From the NCBI GenBank assembly GCA_002721445.1, contig PBKN01000007.1, positions 1-60,134 of the forward strand: a DNA stretch of 60,134 nt, read 5' to 3'. This DNA comes from Chloroflexota bacterium (GTDB taxonomy: Bacteria; Chloroflexota; Dehalococcoidia; Lucifugimonadales; GCA-002723415). Numbering within the stretch: the stretch's first letter is position 1; each line of letters starts with the position of its first letter. The notes beneath the pieces are model-generated. The model was not told the DNA's origin, ran no database searches, and was given only the letters and a program-made list of their open reading frames with translations. Positions 13,708-39,064 of the stretch are shown in pieces. Both the position numbers and the translations under genes were made by a program.

Positions 13708-14994
13708 ATGGATAATAACATAGTAACAGCGATAGATATAGGTACAGATAAAATTTGTACAATAGTTGCTAAGCCTTCTGGGGATAGTTTTAATATATTG
13801 GGATATAGTAGTGTGCCTTCATTAGGAATACATAAGGGTTTGATTGATGATATTGATTTAGCTTCATCTTCTATAATTAATTCCATCAACCAAGTTCAAA
13901 ATGAATTAGGATTGAATATTCAATCAGCTTACATAGGCATGACTAGTCCAAATATAAATTTTAAAACTAGAATAGATAGAATGGATTCTGTTGCTAAGAA
14001 TGGAGTTATTACTACAGATGACCTAAATTGTAATGTTAGTAATTTGATTAAAAATGAAGATGATGTTAACAATGACTTATTACACGTTATTACTCTTTCA
14101 TATATAGTCGATGGTATAGCTGGTATTAAGAATCCACTTGGTATGCATACTGAGGATTTGCAAGTTGATAATTATTTAATTTCAGGAGATAAACAGCAAG
14201 TAGCTAAAATCCGTCAACTAATAAAAATGGTTGGTATTAATATAGATAAACTTGTATTTACCCCTTTAGGGAACATGATGTCTACTCTTACAGATTTTGA
14301 GAAAGATAATGGAGTGATATTAGTTGATATTGGAAAAGGGACTACTGATATTATTGTTGTTAAAAATAATGCTATTTTATGTACTGATGTAATTCCTGTT
14401 GGAGGTTATCAATTTACTAATGATATTTGTGTAACTTATAATTCAACTTACGATATTGCTGAGAATATTAAATTAAAATGGGGGAATGCTGAATTATTTG
14501 GTATATCGCATTCTGAAGAAGTTGATTTAGACACATCAGATGATTCCGTATTGCGAGTACCTCGTAGAGAGGTTTGCCAATTAATTAGGGAGCGAGCTAC
14601 AGAATTAGCAAGATTAGTTAAGATAAAGTTATCGAATCATGGTATTACTGATTTAGCTGATATGTCTTTAGTTTTAACTGGAGGATCAGGTCAGTTGCCT
14701 GGGATAAATTCTATATTTAGACAATCTTTAGGTAGTAATACTAGATTAGGTTTTCCAAAACATAGTAATGAACTAAAAGATGGGTTAAATAAACCAGAGT
14801 TTTCAAGTTCTTTAGGTATATTGTTATGGGGCTTAGACAAAAAAGGTATTAATAATTCTGATGGTTCAGAATCAAATAAATCAGATTCTAATTTAAATAC
14901 TAAAAATAAAACTTATCAATTTATAAACCAAATTAAAACGTTGTTACCAGTACAACCAATTTCGTCAAAATTAGGGAGAGTATTATGGAAATAA
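13708..14994 (+). CDS. ftsA: Cell division protein FtsA
   Basis: Actin-like ATPase that tethers FtsZ to the membrane at the division site; 428 aa. Actin-fold phosphate loops are DIGTDKICTIVAK near the N-terminus, VDIGKGTTDIIVV in the middle and LTGGSGQLPGI near residue 330; the SHS2-type insertion with SAYIGMTS lies in between. The last residues (SSKLGRVLWK) could be the membrane-contacting helix, though it is not a textbook one. GAGGAG lies 8 bases before the ATG. It overlaps ftsZ by 10 bases, so FtsA and FtsZ are translationally coupled. Fully conventional apart from the missing mur and fts neighbours. Confidence 0.95.
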   Translation: MDNNIVTAIDIGTDKICTIVAKPSGDSFNILGYSSVPSLGIHKGLIDDIDLASSSIINSINQVQNELGLNIQSAYIGMTSPNINFKTRIDRMDSVAKNGVITTDDLNCNVSNLIKNEDDVNNDLLHVITLSYIVDGIAGIKNPLGMHTEDLQVDNYLISGDKQQVAKIRQLIKMVGINIDKLVFTPLGNMMSTLTDFEKDNGVILVDIGKGTTDIIVVKNNAILCTDVIPVGGYQFTNDICVTYNSTYDIAENIKLKWGNAELFGISHSEEVDLDTSDDSVLRVPRREVCQLIRERATELARLVKIKLSNHGITDLADMSLVLTGGSGQLPGINSIFRQSLGSNTRLGFPKHSNELKDGLNKPEFSSSLGILLWGLDKKGINNSDGSESNKSDSNLNTKNKTYQFINQIKTLLPVQPISSKLGRVLWK

Positions 14995-16085
14995 TTAATA
15001 GTATAAATCCAAGAGAAATAGCAAAAATTAAAGTAATTGGTGTTGGAGGTGGAGGATCTAATGCAGTATCCAGGATGTTTAGGGAAAGAATTCCTGGCGT
15101 AGAATATGTTGTTGTTAACACAGATGCACAAGCATTACTTCAAAGTGATATTCCTATGAAAATACGTATTGGAGAGCAATTAACTGCTGGCAAGGGGGTT
15201 GGTGGTGACCCAGATTTAGGAATGCGTTCAGCTGAAGAAAGTAGAGAAGAGTTATTTGAAGTAGTACGAGATACAGATATGATTTTTGTAGCAGCAGGAA
15301 TGGGTGGTGGAACAGGTACAGGTTCTGCACCGGTACTTGCTCAAATAGCTAAAGAAACAGGTGCTCTTACTGTTGGAGTAGTAACAAAACCTTTTAGTTT
15401 TGAAGGTAGTAAGAGAACAAAATCTGCCGAAGAAGGAATAAGGAATTTGGGACAGAATGTTGATACACTGTTAGTTATACCTAATGAAAGATTACATGTT
15501 ATATGTGATGAAGAGATTACAGCTGAAAATGCATTTAAAATGGCCGATGATGTCTTACGTTCAGGGGTTCAATCCATAGCTGAACTTGTTACTACTGCTG
15601 GAGATATAAATGTTGATTTTGCTGATATTAACACAGTTATGCGTGATGCTGGTCCAGCATGGATGTCTATAGGTTGGGGTGTAGGAGAAAACAGAGCGAG
15701 AGAAGCAGCTCAGCAAGCTATAACAAATCCACTGCTAGATGTTTCTATAGAAAGCGCAAAAGGGGTTTTATTTAATGTAACTGGTGGCAGCGATTTGAAG
15801 TTATCTGAATTACATGAAGCAGCAGAGGTTATTCAACGTGTAGTTGATCCAGATGCTAATATTATATTTGGAATGGTTACTGATCCAAAAATGGAGAATG
15901 AAATAAAGTTGACGATTGTTGCTACTGGATTTCCTACTGTTGAAAGTATGCAAGAAAGAGAAACACAAATACAAAATATGCTTGAAGATGTTTTAGATGG
16001 AGAAGAGACTGATTTAGATGTTCCTCCATTTTTAAGACGATATTCAATGAGTAGACATAATACTAATGGCTCAATGAATAAATAA
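14985..16085 (+). CDS. ftsZ: Cell division protein FtsZ
   Basis: Tubulin-like GTPase forming the division ring; 366 aa. The nucleotide-binding start GVGGGGSNAV (19-28), the tubulin signature GGGTGTGSAP (107-116), PNERL (166-170) and the T7-loop acids D211 and D214 are all present. The conserved C-terminal peptide DVPPFLRR (345-352) that binds FtsA is reached after an unusually short linker of roughly 30 residues, and 14 further residues follow it. AGGGAG precedes the ATG within ftsA. The gene ends the rsmH-ftsA-ftsZ unit before a strong terminator. Confidence 0.98.
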   Translation: MEIINSINPREIAKIKVIGVGGGGSNAVSRMFRERIPGVEYVVVNTDAQALLQSDIPMKIRIGEQLTAGKGVGGDPDLGMRSAEESREELFEVVRDTDMIFVAAGMGGGTGTGSAPVLAQIAKETGALTVGVVTKPFSFEGSKRTKSAEEGIRNLGQNVDTLLVIPNERLHVICDEEITAENAFKMADDVLRSGVQSIAELVTTAGDINVDFADINTVMRDAGPAWMSIGWGVGENRAREAAQQAITNPLLDVSIESAKGVLFNVTGGSDLKLSELHEAAEVIQRVVDPDANIIFGMVTDPKMENEIKLTIVATGFPTVESMQERETQIQNMLEDVLDGEETDLDVPPFLRRYSMSRHNTNGSMNK

Positions 16086-16106: not shown

Positions 16107-16155
16107 AAAAAAGACAAAAAAGTCTCTAAATTTTAGAGACTTTTTTGTCTTTTTT
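16107..16155 (+). terminator. Strong intrinsic terminator after ftsZ
   Basis: A perfect inverted repeat with 24-base arms (16107-16130 and 16132-16155) around one central base, 21 bases past the ftsZ stop. The core is GTCTCTAAA/TTTAGAGAC, followed by T6-GTC-T8. It separates the division genes from nrdR. Confidence 0.92.
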
Positions 16156-27136: not shown

Positions 27137-27141
27137 TTAAT

Positions 27142-28812: not shown

Positions 28813-29958
28813 CTAATCTTCTTTATTTATTGAATCCTTTATTTTGCTGAACCAGCTCTTGGCATCATTATTTAATTCGTTATCAGGGTCTTCTAAAGTA
28901 TTGGATAATTCTTTGAGAATATTTTCTTGAGAACTTGTTAAATTATCAGGAGTACGTACTACTATAGATACTATATGATCTCCTCTTTTATTAGAGTTTA
29001 GGTGTACAATCCCCTTCCCTTTTAATCGAAAATTTCTTCCATTTTGAGTACCTTTAGGTATGGTTAGTTCAATTTCTCCTTCTAAAGTTTGAACTCTAAT
29101 TTTATCACCTAAGGCTGCTTGTGAAATATTTATGTTTCTAATTGAATGAATATCATATTTTTTTCTATTAAAATATTCGTGAGGAGTAACTGTAACATGT
29201 ACAAATAGATCCCCTGGAGGTCCTTGATCGATACTAGCTTCACCTTCATTAGTTAATCTAATTTGTGTGTCAGTTTCAATCCCAGCTGGGATTGAAACTG
29301 ACAATTTTCTTTTTTTTCTTAGTCTTCCATTACCTGAACATTCTGTACAAGGTGTTTTTATTATTTTACCTCTACCTTTACAACTTCCACAGTTTCCTAC
29401 TTGAACAAACTGTCCAAATACACTTTGTTGTGATCTTCGAACTTGTCCAGACCCATTACAAGAAATGCATGTAGGTGTATCGCTACCAGGTTCGCTTTTA
29501 TTTCCTTTACAATGGGAACATTTTTCTATTCTTTGAATTTGTATTTCAGATTCTGTACCAAATACTGATTCTTCAAAGTCAATTTTTATAGATGTTTGTA
29601 AATCTGATCCTTGATGAACTCTTTGTTTATTACTACTAGTACCAAACCCTCCGCCAAAGAAAGCATCAAAAATGTCACCTACTCCGCCAAAATTTTCAAA
29701 ACCCTCAAATCCTTTTCCAGACCTAGTTCCACTTACAGCATCATGCCCGTATTGGTCATACAATTGTCTTTTTTCATTATCAGAAAGAATTTGGTAAGCT
29801 TCGTTAATTTCTTTGAATTTTGCTTCAGCTTCACTTGTTTTATTGCGATCAGGGTGATATTTAAGAGCTAATTTTCTAAAAGCTTTTTTTATTTCTTCTT
29901 CTGAAGAATTTTTAGATATCTCTAATATATCGTAATAGTCTCTTTTACTTGTAGTCAT
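28813..29958 (-). CDS. dnaJ: Chaperone protein DnaJ
   Basis: Type I Hsp40 co-chaperone that stimulates DnaK; 381 aa. The J domain (1-70) carries HPD in [10 protein letters not shown], followed by a Gly/Phe-rich region. The zinc-binding domain has four CxxCxGxG-type repeats ([32 protein letters not shown]), then the C-terminal client domains with [15 protein letters not shown] and [19 protein letters not shown]. No dnaK or grpE is in the window. No clear ribosome site precedes the ATG. The segment coding [13 protein letters not shown] is a perfect 36-nt palindrome, listed separately. Confidence 0.97.
29268..29303. repeat. 36-nt perfect palindrome inside dnaJ
   Basis: Two 18-base arms meet with no spacer: the left arm TGTCAGTTTCAATCCCAG (29268-29285) is the exact reverse complement of 29286-29303. 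It codes for the conserved DnaJ segment [11 protein letters not shown] on the minus strand. One copy only; no direct repeats around it. Confidence 0.95.
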
Positions 29959-37062: not shown

Positions 37063-37788
37063 TTATTGATTTGGTAAAGATATAGATATTATTTCATTAA
37101 ATTTAGATAATTTAATAATTCTTTTTGTATTATTTTGTTCCATATTATTTATCTTGCCTATTAGTATAGCTTTAGAAAGCAAAAAATCTGATTTTCTGAT
37201 AGTTAATAATACTTCTATATTAGCTTCTTCTACAGGCTCGGGTACTATTGATGCTAAAGATTTATTAGGCAATATTCCATTTATGACATATTTTTCAGTG
37301 GTATTTTCAGTGATTTGTGGTTTTGAGATATCATTAAGGATGTTTGATATTCCTTCACTAGGGTCAAAAAAATTTATTGGGTTTAAATTTTCAGGTATTT
37401 TTTCCCAGATTTCATTTAATGGATTTTTTAGATAGGTTGATTGATTAGTTACAATTACTCCTGACTTAATTGGTATTCCACTAATTAAGCCGCTAAATTC
37501 AATATTAAGTTCTTCCGAATTTATAATATAACCTTTGGCTGATATAAGAGATAAATTAGTTGAGATAAAAGTGAACCCATTTTCATGAGATAAGTCCAAA
37601 TAAAAAGAATTTAGTTTTTCTATAGATTTGCTAGATTTATTTAAAATTTCTATTGGACTTATATATTTTTCTTCTTCATAAATATTTGTATTACTAGATG
37701 AATTGCAACTTAATAATATTATTATCAAATTTACAACAATATAAGTTATTATTAAGTTGCTTAGTTTTAAAATATTATTTTGGATCAT
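37063..37788 (-). CDS. LppX/LprAFG-like lipoprotein (LprG-like)
   Basis: A 241-aa lipoprotein: hydrophobic signal peptide ending in lipobox LLSC with C28 as the lipidated residue. The mature part is predicted to be the curved beta-sheet fold of the LppX/LprAFG family that shelters an acyl chain: SPIEILNKSSKSIEKLNSFYLDLSHENG, alternating strands, and WEKIPENLNPINFFDPSEGISNIL are family-like (the W..IP...L.P..lfdp..gi pattern). The next gene encodes a DHA2 transporter. Together they may move a lipid to the cell surface, by analogy with mycobacteria. Identification is by pattern and context, so moderate. Confidence 0.68.
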   Translation of the reverse strand: MIQNNILKLSNLIITYIVVNLIIILLSCNSSSNTNIYEEEKYISPIEILNKSSKSIEKLNSFYLDLSHENGFTFISTNLSLISAKGYIINSEELNIEFSGLISGIPIKSGVIVTNQSTYLKNPLNEIWEKIPENLNPINFFDPSEGISNILNDISKPQITENTTEKYVINGILPNKSLASIVPEPVEEANIEVLLTIRKSDFLLSKAILIGKINNMEQNNTKRIIKLSKFNEIISISLPNQ

Positions 37789-37804: not shown

Positions 37805-37864
37805 ATAAAATAAAAGAACCCTGAATAAAGTCATATGACTAAATCCAGGGTTCTTTTATTTTAT
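37805..37864 (-). terminator. Intrinsic terminator between the LPITG protein gene and the lprG-like gene
   Basis: Arms of 19 bases (37805-37823 and 37846-37864, core AAGAACCCTG/CAGGGTTCTT) are perfectly complementary; on the minus strand the stem ends in a T-rich tail. The loop itself contains the palindrome AGTCATATGACT. It sits 13 bases after the stop of the upstream minus-strand gene, so lprG-like/MFS need their own promoter. Confidence 0.88.
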
Positions 37865-37876
37865 AATCTTTAAAAA

Positions 37877-39064
37877 CTAAGCTCTGTTTTTCCTTGAAAC
37901 TCTAAGAGCTATAGTACCTATAGATAGAGATATTATTGCTAATAATAGAGTAATAGGCAACAAATTAGTTATTGGAATTCCCCCTGTTATAGGCAAACCA
38001 CTGCCATCATAACGTAATACAGGGTTAATAGATGAAGGGGAAATACCACCGCTTGTTACTGAAGCTAATCTAAATGAAGCCATAAGCTGTGTATCTCTAA
38101 TTGCTTGTTTAGCACCACCTTCACCGGCAACAGCTTCAATAGATGAGTTTTTATTACTATCAAATCCATCTCTAGCAGCTTCTAGGTTACTAATTAAAGT
38201 TCCAGCACCAGGCCCAACAAATATTTGTGCAATTACAAGCTCGTCTTCAGCTATTATATTAGTAATAGCTATATCTCTAGCTAGAGTAGCCCAATCTTCT
38301 GTATTTTTAGCATCTATTTTAACTAGTGTGGATGTTCCAGTTATATATGGATCTCCAGGTACTGCCTCCGATGCTGTAGTGGCAATTGATCTATCAGCAG
38401 CATAGTTTAGTATTCCATAGCCATCACCATTTACAGTTCCAGCTTTGTAATTGGCTCCAGAGGAACCTTCAATTATATTTATTACATCTTGAGCATGTCC
38501 TTGCATTTCAGCTAAGGTAGTAGCATTTTTTGCAGCATGAGCACTAGTAATAGCTAGGTCAAGCTGAGTAACTAGGTTACGAAATACTCCTGTTTCACCT
38601 GTCGGGCTCTTACCAGCTAAATGTCTTATATGAATCAATCCATCTGCTGGAACTTGATGCATGTATAAAACAGTGCCAGGGCTAGACGTATCATCATCTG
38701 GAACAGTTTCTGATGTAATTATTGCAGTTGCGAAATTTTGGAGTAAGTCTATTCCAGTATAACCAGTAGAAGCACTATTAAATGATAGGCTAGCACTTCC
38801 GTCTGCTGCAACTGAAATTACTCCAGTACTTAAGAAAGTTTTAGCATCATCAGACACTAGCCAACTTTCATAAGCTGTTCCTTCTGCAGGTATTGGTAGA
38901 CTATGCAATGTATATCTAATTGCATCATTTGATGAAATATCATCATGTATTTCAGCATTCCCGATTCTTGTTTTTTGTTCCTCTTCCTCAGCTAGTATTA
39001 CTGAAGTCGGGAAAACCATCAGTAAAACTATAGCTAAGAAAGCGGTTAACTTATACCTAAGCAT
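37877..39064 (-). CDS. Secreted surface protein of unknown function with LPITG-type C-terminal tail
   Basis: I do not recognise the function. The 395-aa chain has a signal peptide (MLRYKLTAFLAIVLLMVFPTSVILA, then an acidic EEEEQ) and a C-terminus with L357-P-I-T-G, a hydrophobic stretch of about 25 residues and a basic end (RVSRKNRA), which is the layout of a sortase LPXTG signal or simply a C-terminal membrane anchor. The first domain (AYESWLVSDDAKTFLSTGVISVAADGSASLSF) recalls the extracytoplasmic part of RskA-like proteins; the middle is Ala/Thr-rich and probably helical. No cysteine is evident. GGGAGG lies 13 bases before the ATG. A strong terminator follows, so it is likely a single-gene unit made in quantity. 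Confidence 0.6.
   Translation of the reverse strand: MLRYKLTAFLAIVLLMVFPTSVILAEEEEQKTRIGNAEIHDDISSNDAIRYTLHSLPIPAEGTAYESWLVSDDAKTFLSTGVISVAADGSASLSFNSASTGYTGIDLLQNFATAIITSETVPDDDTSSPGTVLYMHQVPADGLIHIRHLAGKSPTGETGVFRNLVTQLDLAITSAHAAKNATTLAEMQGHAQDVINIIEGSSGANYKAGTVNGDGYGILNYAADRSIATTASEAVPGDPYITGTSTLVKIDAKNTEDWATLARDIAITNIIAEDELVIAQIFVGPGAGTLISNLEAARDGFDSNKNSSIEAVAGEGGAKQAIRDTQLMASFRLASVTSGGISPSSINPVLRYDGSGLPITGGIPITNLLPITLLLAIISLSIGTIALRVSRKNRA

Follow-up and report, generated by a model that had tools for sequence, protein, structure and literature searches.

The window, by which we mean the whole 60,134-nt stretch of DNA analysed (positions 1 to 60,134 of contig PBKN01000007.1, forward strand), lies on contig C7 of the host genome, a 1.71-Mb draft in 18 contigs with a GC content of 30.4% and a completeness of 99%. 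Around the locus of interest, plsY and gpsA (the latter identified by inspection) are encoded on the plus strand and are followed by rsmE, prmA and dnaJ on the minus strand and then by two tRNA genes, also on the minus strand. The convergent genes gpsA and rsmE have stop codons 5 bases apart (window 27137-27141), and no terminator-like site was found at that point. An Rfam search of the window returned rRNA and tRNA only. The closest relatives of the dnaJ product (Table 1) belong to Chloroflexota, mainly Dehalococcoidia, the top match being 58% identical. The host is the sole genome of its family among the genomes searched and all DnaJ comparisons made here are distant ones (at most 58% amino-acid identity); a search of whole genomes, genome contigs, viral contigs and phage records for a close relative of the host found none near enough to polarise changes.

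Directly after the CXXCXGXG domain of DnaJ, within the VxIPAGI segment, the gene contains a palindrome of 36 nt. An earlier note on this DNA had described it as perfect and spacerless, and the sequence is indeed identical to its own reverse complement, with arms of 18 bp and a spacer of 0. The symmetry ends sharply at 36 nt, while the dnaJ open reading frame continues uninterrupted through it and the conserved residues of the peptide carry on across. Arms of 11 bases are the longest seen in any other spacerless palindrome of the window. Read on the minus strand, the codons involved are TTG TCA GTT TCA ATC CCA GCT GGG ATT GAA ACT GAC ACA. Three of these, ATC, GGG and GAC, had been suspected of being uncommon, and genome-wide codon usage agrees, since they make up 6.5%, 10.8% and 16.7% of the codons for their respective amino acids. 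Uncommon third bases face each other across the axis of the palindrome, in ATC and GGG and in TTG (13% of Leu codons) and GAC. The mRNA stem of about 16 bp that the same note had anticipated is also what folding predicts: a 16-bp stem with a 4-nt loop at -32.6 kcal/mol (z = -4.9 against shuffled sequences). The DNA strand of the palindrome likewise folds far better than its shuffles.

Table 1. Coordinates of the palindrome, its gene and adjoining tract in the window, and of the other long perfect inverted repeats in coding sequences of the host genome
Feature	Position	Strand	Sequence	Remarks
dnaJ	28813..29958	-		381 aa, intact; TIGR02349, 435.5 bits; J, zinc-finger and C-terminal domains all present
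Perfect spacerless palindrome, 36 nt	29268..29303		TGTCAGTTTCAATCCCAGCTGGGATTGAAACTGACA	dnaJ codons 219-231 (13-aa peptide)
Left arm	29268..29285	+	TGTCAGTTTCAATCCCAG	3' arm in dnaJ sense; encodes part of A225 to T231
Right arm	29286..29303	+	CTGGGATTGAAACTGACA	5' arm in dnaJ sense; encodes part of L219 to A225
T-rich tract, 3' of palindrome	29304..29321	+ (antisense to dnaJ)	ATTTTCTTTTTTTTCTTA	Lys/Arg codons of dnaJ
Perfect inverted repeat in MFS transporter	C14:62615-62656 (L205)			arms 21, spacer 0
Perfect inverted repeat in MFS transporter	C18:82487-82536 (L209)			arms 21, spacer 8
Perfect inverted repeat in mfd homologue	C5:341877-341925 (L175)			arms 21, spacer 7

Other repeats were observed in the window and in the genome. 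Just 3' of an ftsZ-like gene (14985-16085), an inverted repeat of 49 nt (16107-16155), whose 24-bp arms are perfect and have A-tract and T-tract ends, resembles an intrinsic terminator that would work in both directions. Between the minus-strand open reading frames 37063-37788 and 37877-39064 lies a 60-nt inverted repeat that is 90% complementary (37805-37864) and is probably a terminator. On another contig, the 45-nt tandem repeats from C5:157644 onward (L165) are not a CRISPR array and probably encode a repetitive protein.

How surprising the palindrome should be considered depends strongly on the null model. From base composition, such a sequence is expected at 9e-6 per window and 2.7e-4 per genome, and in this sense the earlier estimate of about 1e-5 holds for random sequence; it no longer does once the peptide is fixed. 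The 13-residue peptide is nearly self-complementary by codon: I-P-A-G-I can pair with itself, V-S-I with I-E-T and L-S with T-D-T. When codons are drawn at genome usage for this peptide, 13.5 of the 18 pairs are already expected and perfect symmetry arises with P = 0.0035. Base-composition estimates therefore inflate the surprise (1e-5 vs 3.5e-3). Perfect pairing requires both S220 and D230; the A220 or G230 that is usual in the order limits pairing to a maximum of 17 pairs. S220 occurred in none of the order sequences read, and D230 in a minority only.

The palindrome is the only copy in the host genome. The genome-wide search for the 18-base arm that the earlier note had called for, allowing up to 3 mismatches, returned only two weak, unpaired matches beside the palindrome, similar to the outcome of a reversed-pattern control, and the pattern was absent from the other genomes of the order. 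Among about 108 aligned DnaJ genes, 4-14 of the 18 positions at this site form Watson-Crick pairs and none exceeds 14; imperfect pairing is therefore what is usually found, and perfect pairing is confined to the host lineage. The compensatory silent changes across the arms that had been proposed as a check did not appear, with cross-arm pairing in the relatives from the order at chance level (0.622 vs 0.612 with arms reassigned at random, p = 0.31; 15 sequences, all distant). A conserved RNA element was rejected on the lack of such covariation, the lack of conservation in the aligned DnaJ genes and the Rfam result, and a dispersed repeat or operator family on the single copy in the genome and absence from the order.

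The palindrome was then set against perfect inverted repeats in coding sequences of nearly the whole genome (1.52 Mb of open reading frames, spacers of 0-8), with 60 synonymous-codon shuffles that hold proteins and codon usage fixed as the null. One open reading frame with many scattered N (C1:151005-152099), which contains an inverted repeat with 16-bp arms, was left out of these statistics. With arms of at least 18 there are 4 repeats where 0.05 are expected, with arms of at least 14 there are 11 (1.22 expected) and with arms of at least 11 there are 54 (19 expected); as the open reading frames came from a mechanical call with a minimum of 100 aa, the shorter repeats may partly lie in false ones, which does not apply to the four longest. 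The excess is weak in a relative of equal GC content (G027), where no coding repeat with arms of at least 14 was found against 0.38 expected in 0.90 Mb of open reading frames, drawn from 0.98 Mb of that genome.

That independent substitutions happened to give matching codons to a self-complementary peptide is the strongest rival to the reading that we prefer, although we regard it as unlikely. A probability of 0.0035 given the peptide and codon usage, with 13.5 of 18 pairs expected anyway, is small yet not negligible among many sites, and has to be counted against any reading of the palindrome as a mutational scar. On the other side, the palindrome codons are both rare and matched across the axis, the outcome to be anticipated had one arm served as the source of the other, and most long coding repeats of this genome must have a cause, because 4 with arms of at least 18 are seen where 0.05 are expected with proteins fixed.

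DNA templating followed by decay predicts an excess of perfect repeats in which the mismatch classes are equal, whereas under selection for an mRNA hairpin G-T mismatches should be enriched over A-C. For arms of 14, perfect repeats are enriched 10x over the null, and repeats with one mismatch 2.4x for G-T, 2.6x for A-C and 2.5x for other mismatches. The perfect-repeat excess and its equal fall in all three classes point to templating at the DNA level rather than to hairpin selection. With two mismatches, where the classes are small, there is a lean to G-T (6 vs 3.0 expected; A-C 2 vs 3.75 expected), which may reflect a small RNA-level contribution. The strong predicted stem notwithstanding, we consider it very unlikely that a hairpin in mid-dnaJ was selected to slow ribosomes, pause polymerase or stabilise the transcript, given that it is unconserved among the aligned DnaJ genes, that pairing across the arms in the order does not depart from chance, and that the one-mismatch excess is indifferent to G-U versus A-C. 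Slowing of ribosomes or polymerase as a selected function, one of three readings offered earlier, thus found no backing in conservation, covariation or preference for G-U.

A U tract follows the stem-loop only in the direction antisense to dnaJ, where the two together could act as a putative intrinsic terminator halting transcripts that arrive from the convergent plsY-gpsA side. On the plus strand ATTTTCTTTTTTTTC comes after the hairpin, and in a scan the site ranked first among terminator-like candidates from 25.5 to 32.0 kb. The same scan gave no candidate near 27.14 kb, where gpsA and rsmE meet in a tight junction, so that antisense read-through into rsmE-prmA-dnaJ is possible. Against this, the site lies 2.2 kb beyond gpsA, with two complete genes in between; the T tract is what codons for KKRK give when read on the opposite strand, at a position that is rich in Lys/Arg in relatives; on a given strand, 15% of random positions have a T-rich tail; and such a tail accompanies 0 of the 3 other long coding repeats. 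The palindrome and T-rich tract probably look like an antisense terminator by coincidence, and termination as the reason for the palindrome is highly improbable.

The perfect dyad symmetry had also suggested a protein-binding site, an operator or another dyad site; this idea retains only a remote chance, as the site lies in mid-gene, is unconserved and absent from the order, and, with up to 3 mismatches to the arm allowed, has no second copy in the genome save the two weak unpaired matches. A CRISPR origin was rejected, since the sequence is single-copy, Cas1 was not found in the host genome and GTTTCAATCCC has no copy there beyond the palindrome; the resemblance to CRISPR repeat ends had been suspected to be coincidental, and rightly so. 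An assembly or amplification fold-back artefact is conceivable in a draft of 18 contigs but very unlikely, as a fold-back usually duplicates a longer stretch and breaks the gene, whereas here the symmetry stops at 36 nt and the frame and conserved residues run through it.

We therefore propose that the palindrome is most likely the mutational scar of quasipalindrome correction by template switching. The segment coding for VSIPAGIET would have started as an imperfect inverted repeat, in which the polymerase may have stalled during replication. The nascent strand would then have folded back or switched strands, so that one arm acted as template for the other and the leftover mismatches were erased in one step or a few before the polymerase returned. 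Such a change would have been tolerated, touching no more than silent positions and perhaps one or two residues at which substitution is permitted (S220, T229/D230); since only synonymous or permissive sites would be altered, no function need be assumed and the event may well have been neutral. Consistent with a scar of this kind are the perfect inverted repeat with a short spacer, the imperfect version in (distant) relatives and the genome-wide excess of perfect repeats that is blind to G-U; with the best DnaJ relative at 58% identity the ancestral sequence is unreadable and the multi-base mutation is not seen directly. Of the three readings that the earlier note had offered, a past fold-back or gene-conversion event is the best supported.

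Comparable products are known from several systems. In E. coli, template switching turns imperfect inverted repeats into perfect ones, as documented at the thyA hotspot and with lacZ reporters (PMC7202029, a review; for quasipalindrome correction, or template-switch mutation, Ripley 1982). The dnaJ palindrome is alike in being a repeat within a gene with short arms and little or no spacer, apparently made perfect from an imperfect one, and unlike in that only the end product is seen, without an ancestor or a reversion assay. In yeast, template switching has changed coding genes, nonsynonymous changes included (PMC8604942); there too the perfect inverted repeats lie in coding genes and involve amino-acid changes, but the Saccharomyces arms are of 11-16 bp and the events were placed on a strain tree, whereas the dnaJ palindrome has arms of 18 and no close relative. 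Many bacterial coding sequences contain an excess of inverted repeats, for which template switching has been put forward as an explanation (PMC4060949). As in the host genome, perfect coding repeats exceed codon-aware nulls; the work of Ladoukakis and Eyre-Walker (2008), as summarised in that paper, differs in concerning arms of 6-9 bp and a small excess, while in the host the excess becomes larger the longer the arms are, up to arms of 18-21. Coding palindromes of up to 284 bp have been described in the mitochondria of Nematomorpha (PMC6649704), where they are also perfect, lie in conserved protein-coding genes and have template switching as their proposed origin, but are far longer, more numerous and mitochondrial. 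RNA stems, too, can arise through template switching (PMC8794818).

A broader suggestion, which we put forward very tentatively and hold to be improbable, is that the host lineage makes perfect in-gene inverted repeats unusually often, the dnaJ palindrome being one footprint of this habit, and that this could stem from an altered complement of repair exonucleases. Neither RecJ (TIGR00644) nor any DHH-domain protein was found in the host genome (G000, 99% complete), whereas RecJ was present in 32 of the 39 genomes of the same search. SbcC, SbcD and XseA are present in the host; loss of the hairpin nuclease SbcCD was accordingly rejected as the cause of the excess, SbcC- and SbcD-like genes both being there. 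The relative with fewer repeats, G027, gave no SbcC match. The missing RecJ/DHH protein could be linked to the repeat excess, on the example of one genome.

The palindrome in dnaJ thus most likely adds one more case to a known class of mutational products, with an ordinary explanation and no sign of a special function. Read as the outcome of template switching, it would be a clean case of how a striking in-gene palindrome can come from mutation and a permissive peptide without function. More useful than the palindrome itself is the excess of long coding inverted repeats in this genome, from which one could start to ask what repair genes govern short template switches.
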